Below, one piece after another: positions 5,011-15,029 of a stretch of 64,000 nucleotides of DNA. This stretch comes from an uncultured Cryomorphaceae bacterium (lineage in GTDB: Bacteria > Bacteroidota > Bacteroidia > Flavobacteriales > Schleiferiaceae), in contig CAJWZE010000004.1 in the NCBI GenBank assembly GCA_913049845.1, positions 1 to 64,000 of the forward strand, read 5' to 3'. The first letter of the stretch is position 1; every line of letters begins with the position of its first letter. The notes beneath the pieces are model-generated. The model searched no databases, had not been told where the DNA came from, and saw nothing but the letters and a program-made list of their open reading frames with translations. The position numbers and the translations under genes were made by a program.

Positions 5011-7452
5011 ATGTCAACTTCAATTATTGACGTGACCGCGTCATTGAATTTGACCCCTACCTACCTACTCATTATTGGTGCTTTAGTCGGTTATTTCCGA
5101 CATCAGCACGAAGGCAAAAAAGTTCCTGGATCGTTAAGTATTCCTAAAGACCTTTTGAAGTCAACAGACTTTAACAAGCTGTGGACACTACTCTACGTCT
5201 TACTACTTCCACTATCTTGGGTGGTAAACGTATTTGCACATGCAGTCTACGCATTGATGTGGCTAGTCAACAGCATAGGCATCATTGTTCGCTGGGCTGC
5301 CATTAAACTCTATTGGTTGTGGCACCAAATCGTAATCGGCTTAGGCGGATTTTTGTTTTACATATTATGGCATTACCTAGTTAAATGGCCGTATCGGTTG
5401 TTTAGCAGAATGCTCAGCACATTCTTTAGCTCGTTCGACTGGGGGGCTTATAAAAACACCTACAGAACAGCAGCTATAGCCTCTCTAATCGGAGTATCGG
5501 GATTCTTGATTGACGATATTTTAGATTTAGAGATGTTCCAATTTTCTGATGTATCCCCCTTGTTAGGGGCAATCGTTCTTCTTAGCGCTGTGGGTTCACA
5601 TATGTCGGCAGCAATGGGAGTGAAGGAAAAAGGAATGCGTCCAACATATGCAGCACTATTAATCACGGCGGTTCTGGCATTCGCAGCACAGACTATTGCG
5701 CAAGATTATTTGATGCTTAATGAAGCAGCTGGAATTCTTGGGGGTGTCGTACTGGGCGTATCGTTTGTAACCTGGGTATATAGCATCCTTATTTCTGCTG
5801 CCCTGGTCCAATTCCTTTCTCTTCTAGTCCCAGCATACTTATCTACCGAAGGTCCATTCAAATGGTTAGATGCACTACGAGTAGCATTTGCCTCAAGATG
5901 GCTAAAGAGTATTGGCTCTATTGCTGTAGCTGTGATTGCATACAACACACTAGGCCTTTGGATATACGAAAACGTGAAGCAGGTTGCTGCGGAACCTTAC
6001 AGTGAATACGTAGCTGTTGTCGATGATAGGATGACAGAAAACGATTCTGATATGGTTGAAGCACAAGCGGATTTAATGGCTGCCATATCTGCAGAGGAGC
6101 CTTCGGCAGATGATTTGGCAAGCGCATACAGGAAGATCAGAGCTATCGAAGCTGGAAATTCTTTTTGGAGCGCAGTTCCTATAGAGCTAAGCGATGTCAT
6201 TTACATAGATGTAAACAAGCCATTTACTACAGAGGAATCGGATGTTGAAGTTGCCCAAAGCGCAGTTGCAGACTTTGATTCATTAGCCGCCTTTAAAGTT
6301 TCAGAATTTGATGCGGCAATCGAGCAAGCCCTCGTTGATGTTTCCATCGCGGAGGCAGAGAGAAATAGAATATTAAGCAGTGGCATTACTGCCAGTGAAG
6401 ACGGCCGTATAGAAAATGGTGAGCGTATGCGTTTCGGTATGCCCATTCCAGTGGATGCGGATAATCTCAAATGGCGTATCACAGACGACGAAGGCGATAC
6501 AATATCGCGCAGAATAGGATCTACGCTTGCTTACAAATTTAGCTCCGGCTCCTACGAAGTTTATGCCGCACCTATCAATGGTTGCGGTACTGGACAGTGG
6601 TCTTCGTTCAGTTTAGGTGTTAATGAATCACCAGAATCACCGCTTCGCATAGGTGTTCCAAGAGGACGCAAAGAAGTATGTGTTGGCGACGAGTATACCT
6701 ATACTGTTCAAGGAGGAATGGACATCTATGTGTGGACCGTTCCTAGCGGCGCTGAGATTGTCGAGGAGAAAGACAATAGAGCCACAGTGAACTGGGGAAG
6801 CACCTCGGGGGATGTGAGTGTGTACGGTATACTGGATGGCGAGCAGTCAAACACTTCTAATCTTTATGTTACTGTTAGCGGTATACCTGGTGCGTCATTG
6901 AGTGATGCAGGAAGTGCGAGTAACGATAGCCCTGAAGAATTTGAAAACGTTCAAGACAACTACTCAGTTTTGGCTGAGGAAGCTGACGCGAAGGTGGATG
7001 CAGCACAAGAGGCACTCACTTCCTTAGAAGAAGATAAAGCAGTATACGAAGTTTATGCAGCGAACGAATCGACAAGACTAAATGCTAAGATGGTAGACGT
7101 TGAAAAACGTTACTCATCGAATACCACTCAGATGATTATGAGCTGGTTGGGTAAGGCACTCTTCTTGTTTGTGGCTTGTCTACTGCTTGCCATCGTATTG
7201 AACTTCCTAGTTCTTTGGGCTTCAAGATACTTCGGCGGACTCTACAACTACGACCAAGACGGCCCAACGTACTTCCGTAGTTCGTTAGGAGACTACCAGA
7301 GCAATTACGACGGCTTCCCGTACTTAGGGCTATTCGTACTTGTAGTAATAATTGTAGGTGGCGGCCTCTTAGGAATTTCAGCCACACAAGATCTATCTCA
7401 AACTCTTCAAGAGGGTGATTTTCCAACTTTATACGAGCTGATTCGACGATAA
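5011..7452 (+). CDS. Large multi-spanning membrane protein of unknown function with central PKD/Ig-like domain and coiled coils
   Basis: Many hydrophobic N-terminal segments, extramembrane middle containing EVCVGDEYTYTVQGGMDIYVWTVPSGAEIVEE...ATVNWGS, then coiled coil and two C-terminal hydrophobic segments. Confidence 0.75.
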   Translation: MSTSIIDVTASLNLTPTYLLIIGALVGYFRHQHEGKKVPGSLSIPKDLLKSTDFNKLWTLLYVLLLPLSWVVNVFAHAVYALMWLVNSIGIIVRWAAIKLYWLWHQIVIGLGGFLFYILWHYLVKWPYRLFSRMLSTFFSSFDWGAYKNTYRTAAIASLIGVSGFLIDDILDLEMFQFSDVSPLLGAIVLLSAVGSHMSAAMGVKEKGMRPTYAALLITAVLAFAAQTIAQDYLMLNEAAGILGGVVLGVSFVTWVYSILISAALVQFLSLLVPAYLSTEGPFKWLDALRVAFASRWLKSIGSIAVAVIAYNTLGLWIYENVKQVAAEPYSEYVAVVDDRMTENDSDMVEAQADLMAAISAEEPSADDLASAYRKIRAIEAGNSFWSAVPIELSDVIYIDVNKPFTTEESDVEVAQSAVADFDSLAAFKVSEFDAAIEQALVDVSIAEAERNRILSSGITASEDGRIENGERMRFGMPIPVDADNLKWRITDDEGDTISRRIGSTLAYKFSSGSYEVYAAPINGCGTGQWSSFSLGVNESPESPLRIGVPRGRKEVCVGDEYTYTVQGGMDIYVWTVPSGAEIVEEKDNRATVNWGSTSGDVSVYGILDGEQSNTSNLYVTVSGIPGASLSDAGSASNDSPEEFENVQDNYSVLAEEADAKVDAAQEALTSLEEDKAVYEVYAANESTRLNAKMVDVEKRYSSNTTQMIMSWLGKALFLFVACLLLAIVLNFLVLWASRYFGGLYNYDQDGPTYFRSSLGDYQSNYDGFPYLGLFVLVVIIVGGGLLGISATQDLSQTLQEGDFPTLYELIRR

Positions 7453-7633: not shown

Positions 7634-8911
7634 TTATCTGACCATCCCCGCTGCAACTGTTTCGTTGGTTGCTTCGTCAACTAGAATGATAGACCCGGTC
7701 ACTCTGTTGACCGTGTAGTAGTCTGCGAAAAGAGGTTTTGTTGACCTGAGTTTTACTCGGGCGATGTCATTCATTTTGATGGCCTTGTCCCCTTGGATTC
7801 TGTGGAGAGTGTTGATGTCCATTTTGTATTGAATATCTGTGATCATTGCTCTTGCTTCGGCTGTGGTGTGTTTGATCACATACTTTGCTCTTGGGCGTGG
7901 TGGCTTCGCGTTTAGCCAGCAAAGCATTACGTCAAGGTCTTGCTGCCCTTCAGGTCTGTTCTCACTGCGTACTAATACATCCCCTCTGCTGATGTCTATG
8001 TCATGTTCTAAGGTGATAGTAACACTTTGAGGAGGGAAAGCTTCTTCAAGCTCACCTGTCATTGTGTGGATGGCGTCAATCCTACTCTCCAATCCTGAAG
8101 GCAAGGCTACCACGCTGTCTCCTTTTTTGAAGATACCACCGGCTACTCGTCCAGCGTATCCCCTAAAGTCGTGGTATTGGTCACTGTGAGGGCGAATAAC
8201 TGTTTGAACCGGGAACCGGCAATCTCTAAGGTTATGGTCCGAAGAGATGTGAACGGTTTCTAGGTTGTGGAGGAGGGTACCGCCTTCATACCAGCTCATT
8301 TTATCTCCGCGAGATACTACGTTGTCTCCGTGGAGGGCAGACATAGGTACAAAGCGTACGTCTTTAACACTGAGCTTAGCGGCAAAATCGGTATATTCTT
8401 TAACTACTTTATCGTAGGCAAGCTGGCTGTAGTCTACGAGGTCCATCTTGTTGATACAAACGAAGATGTGTGGTATCTGTAGGAGGGAAGCTATGAAAGT
8501 ATGGCGCTTCGTTTGTTCAATAACTCCATTGCGCGCATCTACAAGGATGAGTGCAAGGTTAGCTGTTGAGGCACCAGTTACCATGTTGCGTGTGTATTGA
8601 ACGTGTCCTGGTGTATCTGCTATAATAAACTTACGCTTTGGCGTTGCGAAGTAGCGGTAGGCTACATCAATGGTAATGCCTTGCTCACGCTCGTCTTTTA
8701 AACCGTCGGTAAAGAGACTCAGGTCTACGTGCTCGAGGCCTTTCTTTTTTGAGGATTGTTCAACCTGCTGGACCTGGTCCTCGAAAATGCTCTTGCTATC
8801 GTAAAGGAGACGTCCAATCAAAGTGGATTTACCATCGTCAACACTACCCGCAGTGGTGAAGCGAAGTAGTTCCATATCTAAATATCCTTGGGTATCGAAA
8901 TTGTTTTCCAT
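7634..8911 (-). CDS. cysN: Sulfate adenylyltransferase subunit 1 (GTPase)
   Basis: GTPase motifs GSVDDGKSTLIGRLLYD, DTPGHVQYTRNM, NKMDLV; adjacent to cysD. Confidence 0.95.
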   Translation of the reverse strand: MENNFDTQGYLDMELLRFTTAGSVDDGKSTLIGRLLYDSKSIFEDQVQQVEQSSKKKGLEHVDLSLFTDGLKDEREQGITIDVAYRYFATPKRKFIIADTPGHVQYTRNMVTGASTANLALILVDARNGVIEQTKRHTFIASLLQIPHIFVCINKMDLVDYSQLAYDKVVKEYTDFAAKLSVKDVRFVPMSALHGDNVVSRGDKMSWYEGGTLLHNLETVHISSDHNLRDCRFPVQTVIRPHSDQYHDFRGYAGRVAGGIFKKGDSVVALPSGLESRIDAIHTMTGELEEAFPPQSVTITLEHDIDISRGDVLVRSENRPEGQQDLDVMLCWLNAKPPRPRAKYVIKHTTAEARAMITDIQYKMDINTLHRIQGDKAIKMNDIARVKLRSTKPLFADYYTVNRVTGSIILVDEATNETVAAGMVR

Positions 8912-8931
8912 CGTTTCTTATGCTTTGATGG

Positions 8932-9837
8932 TTAGAAGTAACCTTGACGCTTCCTATCTTCCATGGAGCTTTCACTGCGCTTGTCGTCTTCACGATTACC
9001 ACGCTCTGTTTGACGAGAAGAAGCTACTTCTTGAATAATTTTCTCGAGCGTATTTGCATCGCTTTCCTGACCACCAGTGATGGTAATGTCCCCTAAGGTT
9101 CGGAAGCGAACCATTTTTATTTGAGGCTCGTCGGTGTCTTTCAAAGTGATGAATTCACTAACTGGAAGCCAAGAACCGTTTCTCCAGATCACATTGCGCT
9201 CTTTGGCAAAATAGAGCTCGGGAATAGCGATGTTCTCTTGTAAGATGTACTGCCATACGTCCATCTCTGTCCAATTTGAGATTGGGAAGACACGGAAGTG
9301 TTCTCCCATACGCTTCTTACCGTTGAAGAGGTTCCAAAGCTCTGGACGTTGGTTTTTAGGATCCCACTGGCCGAAATCGTCACGGTGAGAGAAGAATCGC
9401 TCTTTTGCTCTTGCTTTCTCCTCATCACGACGAGCACCTCCCATACAGGCATCAAAGTTGTTGAATTCGATGGTATCTAAAAGGGTAGTGGTTTGAAGGG
9501 CATTACGCGATGCGTTCATACCAGTTTCCTCGATTACTGCACCTTCATCTATTGACTGCTGTACAGAACCTACGATAAGGTTGGCACCCATCTCTTTGAT
9601 GAGGTTGTCGCGGAATTCCATTGTCTCCGGGAAGTTGTGACCGGTGTCAATGTGTACTAGCGGGAAAGGGATCTTCGCCGGCCAGAATGCTTTGCGCGCT
9701 AGGTGCGCTACAACAATACTGTCTTTACCTCCAGAAAAGAGGATAGCGGGGTTGTCGAATTGAGCGAAAACTTCTCTAATGATATAGATTGCTTCCGCTT
9801 CTAATTCTTCCAAATGTGTCAATGAATAGTCAGACAT
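8932..9837 (-). CDS. cysD: Sulfate adenylyltransferase subunit 2
   Basis: LFSGGKDSIVVAHLARKAF PP-loop motif, GGARRDEEKARAKER; C-terminus RKRQGYF. Confidence 0.95.
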   Translation of the reverse strand: MSDYSLTHLEELEAEAIYIIREVFAQFDNPAILFSGGKDSIVVAHLARKAFWPAKIPFPLVHIDTGHNFPETMEFRDNLIKEMGANLIVGSVQQSIDEGAVIEETGMNASRNALQTTTLLDTIEFNNFDACMGGARRDEEKARAKERFFSHRDDFGQWDPKNQRPELWNLFNGKKRMGEHFRVFPISNWTEMDVWQYILQENIAIPELYFAKERNVIWRNGSWLPVSEFITLKDTDEPQIKMVRFRTLGDITITGGQESDANTLEKIIQEVASSRQTERGNREDDKRSESSMEDRKRQGYF

Positions 9838-9846
9838 CTTGGTTTT

Positions 9847-10443
9847 TTATAGTTTGATCTTTTCTGATATGTAGTCCACAACCATAGCGGTTGCTTCAGG
9901 TATATTCATTTCGTGTGTAGGCACATTAAGCTCTGGGTTAGTGGGCTCTTCAAATGTCGCACTAATGCCCGTGAAGTTACTGATTTCTCCGGCTCTTGCT
10001 TTGGCATACAATCCTTTTACATCGCGCTGCTCGCATACTTCAAGCGGGGTGCTGATGAAGATTTCTGAGAATCCACCTTCGGCACATTTTCGAACGAAAT
10101 CGCGGTTCTTTTGATACGGGCTTACAAAGGCGCTTAATACTACAAGACCAGCATTTTTCATTAGGGCACTTACGTGTGCGATGCGTCGGATGTTTTCTAC
10201 TCTAGAAGCAGCACTAAAGTCGAGATCGCTATTTAGACCTGTACGGACATTGTCGCCGTCTAAGATAAAAGTTCTGATACCTCGTTGGTGGAGTTCACGT
10301 TCCACTGCCGAAGCTAACGTGCTCTTTCCACTGCCACTCAAACCGGTGAACCACAACACATGACCTTTATGTCTGTTTTGGCGTTCGCGGTCTTCTTTTG
10401 AAATCGCGTGTTGGTGAGGAATAATATGGAGCTTTTCAGCCAC
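9847..10443 (-). CDS. cysC: Adenylylsulfate kinase
   Basis: GLSGSGKSTLASAVE P-loop, LDGDNVRTGLNSDL, FVSPYQKNRD. Confidence 0.95.
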   Translation of the reverse strand: MAEKLHIIPHQHAISKEDRERQNRHKGHVLWFTGLSGSGKSTLASAVERELHQRGIRTFILDGDNVRTGLNSDLDFSAASRVENIRRIAHVSALMKNAGLVVLSAFVSPYQKNRDFVRKCAEGGFSEIFISTPLEVCEQRDVKGLYAKARAGEISNFTGISATFEEPTNPELNVPTHEMNIPEATAMVVDYISEKIKL

Positions 10444-10587
10444 GATGCCTTGTTATTGCTTGATTAGTGGGACAATTTCCAATTTCTGTAGACTAATTCC
10501 TAATTGAAGTGGTCTAAGAATGACTTAATCAAGGAACTATATTTATTATCTTCCAGATTGACCCAAAGACTTAGCCAGTTATAATTC

Positions 10588-10641
10588 TAGGTAAGTTTTA
10601 AAAGATGAGCTAGGATAAGTTGAAAAGAGTTTAGATAAGTA
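10588..10641. promoter_or_regulatory. Three imperfect direct repeats (taggtaagt / taggataagt / tagataagt) in the divergent cysC-10710 intergenic region
   Basis: Copies begin at 10588, 10611 and 10632, spacing 23 and 21 bp (about two helical turns). Confidence 0.35.
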
Positions 10642-10709
10642 AGGGTGTGAGGCAGAGAAATTTTGCCTATCTTCTGGAGGTAAAACATAAACCATAAAAC
10701 ATACTAAAA

Positions 10710-11012
10710 ATGGCAGATTTTAACATTTCAGGAAGAATGAAAATCAAATCTCTTAAAGACGACTTTAAAGCGGAATTCGGAGGCACACTAAGGGTATATG
10801 ACGGAAGAAGTCATGCTGATGATTCGGCTACAGTAGGTAGCGTGGCAAAGAAAACGGTTTCGAGAGGAAGCGAGGTAAGCGCGAATGGTAATCTCTTGGT
10901 TAGGACATTCGAGGAAAGAGTCAAAGAGGCTTATGGAATTAGAGTTGAGGTTGCAACTGCAGACGACTCTAAACTTGCAGACGACGGCTGTCGTTTAGGT
11001 TCAATTTCATAA
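10710..11012 (+). CDS. Small conserved-hypothetical-type protein (paralog 1)
   Basis: 100 aa, MADFNISGRMKIKSLKDDFKAEFGGTLRVYDG...LVRTFEERVKEAYGIRVEVATADDSKLADD; aligns over its length with the next ORF. Confidence 0.7.
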   Translation: MADFNISGRMKIKSLKDDFKAEFGGTLRVYDGRSHADDSATVGSVAKKTVSRGSEVSANGNLLVRTFEERVKEAYGIRVEVATADDSKLADDGCRLGSIS

Positions 11013-11020
11013 CTAACGCT

Positions 11021-11044
11021 GTGAGACCTTCGGGTCTCACTTTT
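11021..11044 (+). terminator. Intra-cluster rho-independent terminator or attenuator with UUCG tetraloop
   Basis: gtgagacc-ttcg-ggtctcac perfect 8-bp stem followed by tttt, between the two paralogs. Confidence 0.75.
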
Positions 11045-11056
11045 ACTTTACAAATC

Positions 11057-11425
11057 ATGGGATTTTTTGACAGTATTAAAGACCGCTTCAATAAAGCTGA
11101 GTTTTCTGTTTCACCAAACAAAAAGCTTAAAACCATTTCGAAATCATTCAAAGATAATTTTGAGCTGTCCCTTATCTTTTACAAGGGAAACCTAATCGCC
11201 GATGGGAATCTAACAATCGCTGCTTTAAATAAACTAACTAGTAAAACGGTAAACAAACAGTCTAATGACGAACTTAAAATAAAAGGGAGTATGAAGGTAG
11301 GAGATGTAGAAAACGAATTTATGCGCCTTTACAACATAAAAGTTCAAATTAAGGATGTAGCGGAAAAGAAGCTCATTCCAAATGATATTACAATCGGTAA
11401 AGGGGCTCGAGGCGAGTATAAGTAA
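11057..11425 (+). CDS. Small hypothetical protein (paralog 2)
   Basis: ORF track starts at GTG 11021 inside the hairpin; ATG 11057 (MGFFDSIKDRFNKAEFSVS...) is more plausible. Shares the xxFKxxFxxxLxxYxG...NExMRLYNIKVQIKD pattern with paralog 1. Confidence 0.7.
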   Translation: MGFFDSIKDRFNKAEFSVSPNKKLKTISKSFKDNFELSLIFYKGNLIADGNLTIAALNKLTSKTVNKQSNDELKIKGSMKVGDVENEFMRLYNIKVQIKDVAEKKLIPNDITIGKGARGEYK

Positions 11426-11760
11426 TGTCTGTTTCTAGTTACCTTAATTATATTGATCGTGAGAAACGTGAGATTGAAACACATCGTCGCTATATAATAT
11501 CTTATCAGAAGGAAATTACCAAATGGAGAGACGATGTTAAAGACGAGAGAGATAAGGCAAAAAGCAGACTTAAGTATGCCTCTTCATCTTCTGAAAAATC
11601 CAGAATTCGCGATCAGCGCGACAGGCAAATATCCAGACTGAGATCGAAGATTGATCGTCGCAAAGAGGACATAGTTTCTAAGCGCAAAAGAATCAAGAGC
11701 TGTAGAGAGGATATTCGAGGTTATAGAGAAAAGATTAGAGACATAAAGCGTAGAAGATAA
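11425..11760 (+). CDS. Basic coiled-coil protein, unknown function
   Basis: 111 aa, Lys/Arg/Glu-rich heptad-like sequence; TAATG overlap with the upstream ORF. Confidence 0.65.
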   Translation: MSVSSYLNYIDREKREIETHRRYIISYQKEITKWRDDVKDERDKAKSRLKYASSSSEKSRIRDQRDRQISRLRSKIDRRKEDIVSKRKRIKSCREDIRGYREKIRDIKRRR

Positions 11761-11866
11761 TTTAACCTTTTAGGACTCTTATTCAGTTATCTATACTTAA
11801 AAGAAACAAAATATCTTATTGAGTGATGACTTAAAGTCATAGTTAATCTTGGCTGGGGCAGTAGCA

Positions 11867-11983
11867 ATGATGTCTTTATTCAAAAAGATAATTGGGATTG
11901 AAAAATATGCCGCGGGCTCGGTTGATAAGAACAATCTAGATGCCCAGGAGCTAGATAATGGTCAAGTTAAAGTGGTTTGTTAG
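11867..11983 (+). CDS. Possible 38-aa small protein MMSLFKKIIGIEKYAAGSVDKNNLDAQELDNGQVKVVC
   Basis: Complete ORF below the 60-aa track cutoff, same strand as the small-protein cluster. No clear ribosome-binding site. Confidence 0.25.
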   Translation: MMSLFKKIIGIEKYAAGSVDKNNLDAQELDNGQVKVVC

Positions 11984-12039
11984 AACGTATGCCTTCTCAC
12001 AACGAAAATTTCCCAGTAACCGATTGTAAGAAAACAGCT

Positions 12040-13242
12040 TTACTTTTCGTAGTTAAAGATAGAGGCAAAATCTGCAATTAGCTTGTAGTAAACAATAGCT
12101 TTTTTTTTCAGAATTCCACTATTTACATGTAATAACAATACATTGCTTTTTGTCCTTTCGTGAATGAAGTGTGTGATATGATCACTCGGTGGCAAACCAA
12201 CTGTATGATGAATGCCGAATTCCATTTCATGATTTTTACATACTTCGCCAGCACGTTTAGAATAGTCCTCTAAGCGATCAATTTTTTTGAAGAATTTACC
12301 TATTGAAAAATCAGGATTCTCTTTTTCACCTCCGTTATTGAATTGCATTAAAAATTCATTTCTACTTGCATTAACAAAGTAAATACAAGTACTGTTTGGC
12401 CGAACTATCTCAGTTATATCTTTTATTAACTCTTGAAGGCTGGGATGACTTTTATCATTTTCTTCGAAAGAGTTCCTTTTTAAATTTAAGGAGCGTTCCT
12501 CAATGAACGACATAGGACTGTACAATTCGTTAGAGATGTAATTAGCATTCGTTAACTCTGCGATACATCGGGTAAAATGTCCGAAAAAGGGCTGCATAAC
12601 TGCGGTCATATTCATAATGGTTAAGTCACTATCTCTATTGATTACCTGGCCATAACTTCGATTAAGCGTTATGAGCTCTAATCCTATCGTATCTTCCCCA
12701 TTAAATTTGACATTACGTAATCTGAATAAATTAGAGTATTCACAGACTTTGATGACTTCCTCCATAGAGATACCCATCTTAAATTGAATGTCGTTAGTGC
12801 TCAGCCATTTTCTGGGTAGGTGCGATATTCCCAAATCTTCTTTGACGTCTTTAACCGGCATGAAGTACTCTATATTGAAGGCATAACGAATTTTTTGCTC
12901 TACGATAGACATTCTTTTGAGATGTTTATCTTTTTCAATTTCTTCGATAAATCCAGAGGCAATGATACCCGCTGGCAAGGCGAATAAACCAACCCCAAGA
13001 ACTGCAATAAAGCTGCCTAAAATTTTACCTAATGGAGTTATTGGGTCAGCAGAGGATATTCCTAGAGACGTTAGATATTTATCTATTCCCCAGAGTAGTG
13101 ATGATTGAATAGAAGGGAAGCTTTCAGGCTGCGCACTATGCTCTAAAAAATACATAAGTATCGAGGCTACCATTAAAAGGGCGATAACCAAGCCTAGAGA
13201 TACGGTCAACTCTTTCCTTTTATTTTTTACTGCTGAAATCAT
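12040..13242 (-). CDS. Two-TM ion-channel-like protein with degenerate selectivity filter and ~290-aa C-terminal domain of unknown function
   Basis: LMYFLEHSAQPESFPSIQSSLLWGIDKYLTSLGISSADPITPLGKILGSFIAVLGVGLFALPAGIIASGF matches the S5-pore-S6 layout of K+ channel homologs, but TVGYGD is absent. Confidence 0.7.
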   Translation of the reverse strand: MISAVKNKRKELTVSLGLVIALLMVASILMYFLEHSAQPESFPSIQSSLLWGIDKYLTSLGISSADPITPLGKILGSFIAVLGVGLFALPAGIIASGFIEEIEKDKHLKRMSIVEQKIRYAFNIEYFMPVKDVKEDLGISHLPRKWLSTNDIQFKMGISMEEVIKVCEYSNLFRLRNVKFNGEDTIGLELITLNRSYGQVINRDSDLTIMNMTAVMQPFFGHFTRCIAELTNANYISNELYSPMSFIEERSLNLKRNSFEENDKSHPSLQELIKDITEIVRPNSTCIYFVNASRNEFLMQFNNGGEKENPDFSIGKFFKKIDRLEDYSKRAGEVCKNHEMEFGIHHTVGLPPSDHITHFIHERTKSNVLLLHVNSGILKKKAIVYYKLIADFASIFNYEK

Positions 13243-13271
13243 TTGTTTTTTTTGTTTATGTAACTGCGCCT

Positions 13272-15029
13272 TTACAGCAATATTAGAAGTGTGATAATTG
13301 AATAAATGATTAAAACGGGGATTCCCATTTTTAGAAAATCTCTGTTTGAGTAGTTACCAGCACCCATAACCATCAGGTGGGTTTGGTAGCTAGTCGGGGT
13401 CAAGAAACTTGCACTTGCCGCGAAAGCTACAGGTAAAAGTACGTCAAGGTTGGAAAGATCGTAGTGTTGCATTATTGCTGCTGCGATTGGGAATGCAATG
13501 GCCACTGCACTAACGTTGGTCATGAAGTTGGTAAAGAGCACAGTCAGTCCAAAAAGTCCAGCAACGGCAAGTGTGCTGTTTTCGGGGAGATTTATTTTCT
13601 CCAAGAAGAAATGAGCATGTCCGCCTTCCACTATTGCGGATCCAAAAGCAACAGAAAGAATTAGAAGCGCATAAAGCTGAGCATTGAATTCATTCTTGAG
13701 TTTTTCAGCATGAGAAAGGCCACAGGCGACGGCACTAATTAAAAGTAATGCTACGGTAATGAGAAGCGTCCATTTCATGAAGAACGCTGTAGCTATAATG
13801 ACAAGTACACTAGGCAAGAAGAAGCGCTCACGGCCTAATCTCTTCTCTGATAATCTATTGTGTTGTTCGATTGCAATGAGGGTAGTTTCTTCTTGGTTGC
13901 GTTCAATGAAGTCTTTACCAGTAGCGAGTAAAAGCAAATCGCCAGCTTGTAAGACTAACCTTCCAATCTTTCCTTTAAGCGGTTGACCGCCGCGTTGAAC
14001 GCCTATAACGACGGCATCGTAGCGAAGACGGAAGTTGGTTTTTTTCAATGGCCTTCCGATGAGGTCAGAATTATTGGGGATTATTACCTCAATGAGGTTA
14101 GAACGTCCTTGTACTTTGAATTTCTCCTCGACGTTTTTCAATCCTTTAGGAAATTGATCAAGCAGCTCGTTAACATTCTCGATAGCACCTGTAAAGTAAA
14201 GTGTGTCGTTGGCTTGAAGCACTTCTTCTGGTGCTACTGGGGAGATGAATTCACCATTTCTATAGACCTCTGTTAAGAACAAGTCGTTGAGGTTCCTGAG
14301 GCGGGCCTTTTTGACGGTTTTTCCGTCCATAGAACCTCCAGGAATTACTTTGAGTTCCGTGGTGTAGTTTCTTGCAGATACTAGCTCCTGTCCTTCGTTA
14401 TTATCCTCAGATTTCAATATGATAGGTGCGAGGAAAATAGAGACGCTTAAGACTCCAATGGTAACTAAGGCACCAGGTATCAGGAAGTCGAAGAACTGAA
14501 AACCTTCAATACCATTTTCGATCATCATACCGTTCAGAACTAGGTTGGTGGAGGTGCCAATCAAAGTAGTGGTACCACCGGCAACCGCGGCAAACGATAT
14601 CGGAAGTAAAAAGAGTGAGGCGTTCCATCCTTTTGCCGCCGAGCGCTGTTTGATGGTTGGTATGAGTAAAGCTACAATAGGAGTGTTGTTCACAAGGCCG
14701 CTAAGTAGTGCTGTGAATGCGGAGGTTGAGAAGAGGAAGGATTTTTCAGAATTGCCGAATCTGCTTAGGAGAAGGTCTATTCGAATTTGCTTTTTAAGCA
14801 CACCGGTTAAGGCAATAAGTGCCATTACCGTTAGTAGTGAAGGGTTGACCGCGGCACTATAAATATGCTTAATACCCATGAAGCCAGACAGCAGGAGAGC
14901 GAGCACTGTTAAACCGAAGATATGCATAGATTTAAATCGGCCCCAAAGTAGGCCAATGACAATGCACAAAAAAGCCACTACATAAATGTAATGGCTCATT
15001 TCTGGAGTATGTGAGAATGTTTCTGTCAA
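13272..15029 (-). CDS. SLC13-family permease with two TrkA-C (RCK_C)-like domains, probable sulfate/anion transporter
   Basis: 585 aa; GLVNNTPIVALLIPTI, AGGTTTLIGTSTNLVLNG, C-terminal NVSAVAIAFPIAAAI; central RCK_C-like repeats. Confidence 0.85.
   Translation of the reverse strand: MTETFSHTPEMSHYIYVVAFLCIVIGLLWGRFKSMHIFGLTVLALLLSGFMGIKHIYSAAVNPSLLTVMALIALTGVLKKQIRIDLLLSRFGNSEKSFLFSTSAFTALLSGLVNNTPIVALLIPTIKQRSAAKGWNASLFLLPISFAAVAGGTTTLIGTSTNLVLNGMMIENGIEGFQFFDFLIPGALVTIGVLSVSIFLAPIILKSEDNNEGQELVSARNYTTELKVIPGGSMDGKTVKKARLRNLNDLFLTEVYRNGEFISPVAPEEVLQANDTLYFTGAIENVNELLDQFPKGLKNVEEKFKVQGRSNLIEVIIPNNSDLIGRPLKKTNFRLRYDAVVIGVQRGGQPLKGKIGRLVLQAGDLLLLATGKDFIERNQEETTLIAIEQHNRLSEKRLGRERFFLPSVLVIIATAFFMKWTLLITVALLLISAVACGLSHAEKLKNEFNAQLYALLILSVAFGSAIVEGGHAHFFLEKINLPENSTLAVAGLFGLTVLFTNFMTNVSAVAIAFPIAAAIMQHYDLSNLDVLLPVAFAASASFLTPTSYQTHLMVMGAGNYSNRDFLKMGIPVLIIYSIITLLILL

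Follow-up and report, generated by a model that had tools for sequence, protein, structure and literature searches.

Small ubiquitin-like proteins of prokaryotes are known from polyUbl and other ubiquitin-like conjugation operons (PMC1779556), and conjugation of cGAS has been described in CBASS (PMC10097602). The locus described here resembles the polyUbl and conjugation operons, some of which are linked to defence, in that it holds small, predicted tandem ubiquitin-like proteins in an accessory operon. It shares its pore architecture with Kv/KCNQ and bacterial Nav-type channels (Pfam Ion_trans), and full-length homologues of its channel keep S1-S6. Homologues of PD-T4-3 (CMoRE), a proven anti-phage nuclease (PMC12923530), of the KAP NTPases PifA and QatA and of the PD-T4-6 kinase occur in fuller cassettes of the same kind, where a TerB-domain gene recurs as in TerB/Ter-type stress clusters. 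The window, i.e. the whole stretch of 64,000 nucleotides that was analysed, belongs to the genome of a marine bacterium, 1.79 Mb in 106 contigs.

Insertion of the block at a hotspot

The block (10588-13242) sits between an SLC13 permease gene and cysCDN, 2,828 bp (~2.8 kb) separating cysC from SLC13. Its four main ORFs, cysC/D/N and the permease lie where the preliminary description had placed them (Table 1), and the insertion that it suspected is borne out by same-genus genomes with an uninterrupted SLC13-cysCDN locus and a gap of ~65-260 bp on one contig (~83 bp in G017, ~66 bp in G013, where the contig ends within cysC, and ~261 bp in G003). SLC13 orthologues were present in 8 of 25 genomes of the genus, cysD in 5. 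In G001 the junction is occupied by 3.85 kb of other genes, among them those of a rhomboid protease and of small secreted proteins (L078:4793-8639), and in G016 by 1.6 kb with three other genes (L079:7426-9026); a 182-aa protein is common to both. Given the contiguous arrangement in three genomes and the other genes in two more, the ancestral order was probably contiguous, with the SLC13-cysC junction being a hotspot for insertions. The G+C content of the block is 35-39% vs 43-48% in its flanks, and no integrase, transposase, tRNA site or Rfam element was found in it.

Since the hotspot accepts unrelated genes too, insertion at this place is uninformative on a function in sulfate metabolism. 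Such a role was rejected because the block is absent from related SLC13-cysCDN loci, because the copy in same-genus genome G008 occurs without cysD and without an SLC13 orthologue, and because the module has other neighbours in other genomes. G017, G013 and G001 all have the conserved leader found upstream of cysC (10478-10515; plus-strand sequence CAATTTCCAATTTCT..ACTAATTCCTAAT), despite differing adjoining genes; no Rfam match at the gathering threshold was found for it. Beside cysN lies the gene of an 813-aa multi-TM protein (5011-7452) with one PKD-like domain and otherwise no Pfam match.

Table 1. Features of the block and its flanks (window coordinates)
Feature	Position	Strand	Description
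cysC/D/N	7634-10443		as in the preliminary description
cysC	9847-10443	-	left neighbour; host gene, outside the module
Left junction	10520-10709		cysC leader retained, inserted sequence begins at ~10520-10545; from comparison with G017, G013 and G001
P1 (paralog 1)	10710-11012	+	100 aa; a ~48-residue beta-alpha-beta unit occurs twice by internal duplication; tandem ubiquitin-like beta-grasp predicted
P2 (paralog 2)	11057-11425	+	122-aa paralogue of P1; family end G-[QK]-[AG]-A-R-G-E-Y
CC	11425-11760	+	basic coiled-coil protein of 111 aa; TAATG overlap with P2
Channel (P0004)	12040-13242	-	S5-pore-S6 (residues 9-127) and ~300-residue C-terminal domain; no S1-S4 voltage sensor
Right junction	13243-13271		29 bp from channel start to SLC13 stop codon
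SLC13/DASS-type permease	13272-15029	-	CitMHS and two TrkA-C domains; right neighbour; host gene, outside the module

Protein families of the block

The two plus-strand proteins of ~100 aa, which had been called paralogous, are true paralogues (29% identity, BLASTP E=1e-11; profile-profile probability 99.7%, E=4e-25). They had also been considered functionally unrecognisable, and models of Pfam, NCBIfam, PADLOC and PHROGs indeed gave no match to P1 or P2. Synonymous change exceeds amino-acid change relative to G008 in P1 (86% identical, dN 0.11, dS saturated), in P2 (dN 0.36, dS 1.72) and in CC (73% identical to the equivalently placed gene, dN 0.25, dS saturated); this purifying selection, together with distant homologues, led us to reject chance ORFs. 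The basic coiled-coil protein with its TAATG overlap was recovered as described, and gave a weak profile match (prob 76, E=2e-5) to an 80-aa coiled-coil protein of Bacteroidales cassettes. The 38-aa ORF at 11867-11983 (+), previously listed as a possible gene, has no homologue in any locus compared and is probably not a gene.

P1 is built from two mutually homologous halves (hhalign 95.6%, E=1e-8), the repeat unit consisting of strand, helix and strand followed by a conserved 'ADD.aTL' turn. P2, like P1, is an internal duplication. An AlphaFold2 model of P1 (28 sequences; pLDDT 75, pTM 0.59) has the order E-H-E-h-E-H-E, and the PDB matches listed for it by Foldseek are nearly all ubiquitin-like and mostly tandem, led by ISG15 and linear di-ubiquitin. 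The best of these PDB matches is weak (E=0.015), with none from Foldseek at E<0.001. Sequence profiles of the small proteins match ubiquitin weakly; that of P2 gave a weak match to FERM F1 (ubiquitin-like) domains (E=0.07) and runs in register with ubiquitin residues 12-59, without significance. A ubiquitin-like (beta-grasp) fold is likely for P1 and P2, and moderately supported. In some cassettes the P1 domain is fused to OmpA, PspC or WG-repeat-like parts, which shows that it is a modular domain and fits an adaptor. Fusion to a membrane-anchored OmpA protein is found at L013:4595-5908 and L018:3122-4015, and standalone OmpA relatives match ZorB weakly (E=2e-4).

The minus-strand channel had been taken for a degenerate gene unrelated to its neighbours, a view that has to be revised, as it belongs to a conserved family linked to the module. 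The whole protein can be aligned (27% identity) with the pore and C-terminal domain of Bacteroidales channels of 563-577 aa, in which the transmembrane part is KCNQ-like (profile E=2e-28 to KCNQ2); as these channels are linked to the module and the homology is end to end, the idea of an unrelated or decayed gene was dropped. Profile and Foldseek searches identify S5-pore-S6 by its similarity to the pores of KCNQ and MloK1 (E to 2e-5), and the Pfam Ion_trans match is weak (E=8e-4, below the curated cut-off). The filter region reads KYLTSLGISSADPITPLG where TVGYGD would be; the window copy has TSLGISSAD (YLTSLGISSADP) and no TVGYG. Because TVGYGD is also absent from all these Bacteroidales channels, which have YIGDPGGFADTPP in common, the non-canonical filter is a property of the family and not decay of the window copy. 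The model of the C-terminal domain has a pLDDT of about 50, and the Foldseek matches listed for it are channel structures. Channels with Nav/Cav-type pore loops (e.g. TLFRILTGEDW) accompany P1 in G779, L015 (268 aa) and L130, so that different channel types are paired with the same small proteins. In a Flagellimonas cassette the voltage sensor and the pore of the canonical TVGYGD channel are encoded by separate ORFs (L010:10371-11107), which lie in different frames with a 4 bp overlap, owing to a frameshift or sequencing error.

Distribution and linkage

An alignment-based scan of 84,980 species genomes for P1, which undercounts loci because it used short patterns, gave 23 other loci across Bacteroidota and in a Kapaibacterium. 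Within the genus, P1 was found only in the window genome and in G008, on a different contig, where GIY-YIG, KAP NTPase, P1, P2, PH-like and CC genes follow one another before more genes. By HMM, P1 was detected in 13/295 Bacteroidales genomes (about 4% of those sampled) and in 3/298 Flavobacteriales genomes (about 1%), with P2 adjacent in all three of the latter. Of 22 P1-positive loci that were inspected, 15 have P2 at most 7 kb from P1, a count made after merging two fragments of one genome and including some close relatives. The small genes are thus not unlinked singletons, and the expectation that both paralogs and the coiled-coil gene travel together was supported by coiled-coil proteins and channels linked to P1 in many loci. 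Many of the 34 loci whose architecture was tabulated have a channel in one co-directional row with P1, P2 and a coiled-coil protein of 80 or 111 aa.

Strict P2 matches were found in 3/295 Bacteroidales genomes, all P1-positive (hypergeometric p=7e-5). The channel C-terminal domain occurs in six of these 295, and five of the six carry P1 1.2-5.8 kb away (hypergeometric p=4e-7); G459 and G741 look closely related, leaving about four of the five linked cases independent, and because several Bacteroidales loci are close kin the counts overstate the number of independent events. In G612 the channel occurs without P1. Among 268 Flavobacteriales the domain was seen only in the window genome, beside P1/P2, and it was present in 8 of the 14 genomes reached via P1 loci. 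In G779, from another Flavobacteriales family, a Nav-type channel, a MORN/aspartyl protease, P1, P2 and a 253-aa protein form an operon-like row. Two near-identical copies of the channel-MORN/protease-P1-P2 part lie on two contigs of this genome (L124, L125), reflecting duplication or strain mixture, and on L125 cysN/cysD are located ~5 kb from the channel. With the same families linked across Bacteroidota, and no description of them found in the open-access literature searched, the case for a real module is strong and the earlier suggestion of an undescribed multi-gene module stands.

Cassette partners and proposed function

Fuller cassettes add a KAP NTPase, a GIY-YIG nuclease, PD-(D/E)XK nucleases, a Ser/Thr kinase and TerB, and also hold PspC, OmpA, DUF4230, pyroglutamyl peptidase and lipoprotein genes. 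In many Bacteroidales cassettes the pyroglutamyl peptidase (Peptidase_C15) gene is directly upstream of the long-channel gene (L017:7945-8565 and equivalents), often overlapping it. The GIY-YIG protein matches the PD-T4-3 anti-phage model (E=1e-56) and a nuclease the PDC-S26 model (E=3e-8), while the KAP NTPase (Pfam E=8e-39) matches PDC-S20/PifA/QatA models (E to 6e-33) and the kinase the PD-T4-6 model (E=4e-38), both at family level, KAP and kinase proteins occurring in many roles. The recurrence of the module beside known virus-defence genes suggests that it could be a defence or stress module not described before. A role in conflict or defence is favoured by its patchy occurrence, its insertion at a hotspot and its nuclease and KAP partners, and the TerB/PspC/OmpA partners leave open a role in stress.

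We see an even chance that the window block was acquired horizontally and represents a reduced copy of a conserved Bacteroidota defence/stress module in which ubiquitin-fold adaptors control a channel. The core would consist of two small soluble tandem ubiquitin-like proteins, joined by the basic coiled-coil protein and by a cation channel that is tetrameric and belongs to the voltage-gated superfamily. We infer a role for the ubiquitin-fold proteins as adaptors or switches that work non-covalently, independently of E1/E2 conjugation. They might couple the cytoplasmic C-terminal domain of the channel to an intracellular sensor of stress or infection, for which fuller cassettes offer the KAP NTPase, the kinase or the nucleases. 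Upon sensing, the pore would be opened or blocked and membrane potential or ion content altered, resulting in a protective or abortive response. The window would retain only the adaptor-coiled-coil unit and a channel devoid of its voltage sensor, on the opposite strand. A broader claim, which we advance tentatively and regard as somewhat improbable, is that the module constitutes an undescribed signalling system in which tandem ubiquitin-fold adaptors gate voltage-gated-type ion channels through a new cytoplasmic domain, with no conjugation, for anti-phage or stress use in Bacteroidota.

A housekeeping-type system for stress or envelope homeostasis (osmotic, metal or membrane stress; Ter/PspC-like), with adaptors and channel regulating ion balance, is a lesser but appreciable possibility. 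It would suit the TerB, PspC, OmpA, DUF4230 and lipoprotein genes of the cassettes, the voltage-gated channels and our failure to find P1 on viral contigs, phages or plasmids, but sits poorly with a very patchy distribution (3/298 Flavobacteriales, 13/295 Bacteroidales), with insertion at a hotspot and with the repeated nucleases, including the PD-T4-3 relative.

KAP, GIY-YIG, kinase and TerB genes are all missing from the window block, so its function must persist without them or the copy is decaying. In the latter case P1, P2 and CC would be kept by inertia and the channel would be a non-conducting fragment, which we consider rather unlikely. The window copy lacks the KAP, GIY-YIG and PH-like genes that are present in G008, its channel is inverted relative to P1-P2-CC unlike in other loci, its filter is altered, and no remnant of S1-S4, which other full-length members have, was found upstream or elsewhere in the window, the SLC13 gene starting 29 bp from the channel. 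However, all four ORFs are intact, P1, P2 and CC are under purifying selection, and the channel keeps 27% identity over its full length to distant homologues that themselves lack TVGYGD.

The resemblance to ISG15 and di-ubiquitin might suggest conjugated modifiers as in Bub/Bil or polyUbl operons, a reading that is very improbable. The C-terminal ends (..AAGK or ..SASGK in the P1 family, GSIS in its window copy, GQAARGEY in P2) include no di-glycine or glycine tail in either family, no E1 (ThiF), E2 or JAB was seen in the window block, and none was matched by Pfam among the cassette proteins scanned; E1/E2-type conjugation was rejected on these grounds. An accidental pile-up of unrelated genes, such as the hotspot holds in G001 and G016, is hardly credible and contradicted by the linkage statistics and by the same families being linked across different families, orders and genomic sites.

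Comparison with known systems

Unlike polyUbl operons, the module shows no E1, E2 or JAB among the proteins scanned and no di-glycine tail, its units of ~48 residues are shorter than ubiquitin, and its partners are channels and coiled coils. The module channel differs from Kv/KCNQ and Nav channels by a conserved ~300-residue C-terminal domain that belongs to no known family, and from Kv/KCNQ by YIGDPGGFADTPP instead of TVGYGD in the filter and, in the window copy, by the missing voltage sensor. To our knowledge, PD-T4-3/CMoRE, PifA, QatA and PD-T4-6 have no P1/P2, coiled-coil or channel partner, and the window copy, in turn, has none of the components of those systems. As a difference from Ter-type clusters, no TerD-type gene was present among the proteins examined, and TerB is absent from the window.

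If the proposed reading is true, the module unites small ubiquitin-fold proteins and voltage-gated-type channels, which are not known to be joined in bacteria, and offers a tractable four-gene unit for studying channel control by a ubiquitin-fold adaptor. In gut and oral Bacteroidota, three protein families and a channel domain, all without Pfam, NCBIfam or PADLOC models, recur beside genes known from anti-phage defence, and are thus candidate components of a new system of defence or stress. In content, the module resembles known defence/stress cassettes, and in one part the ubiquitin-like systems of bacteria.
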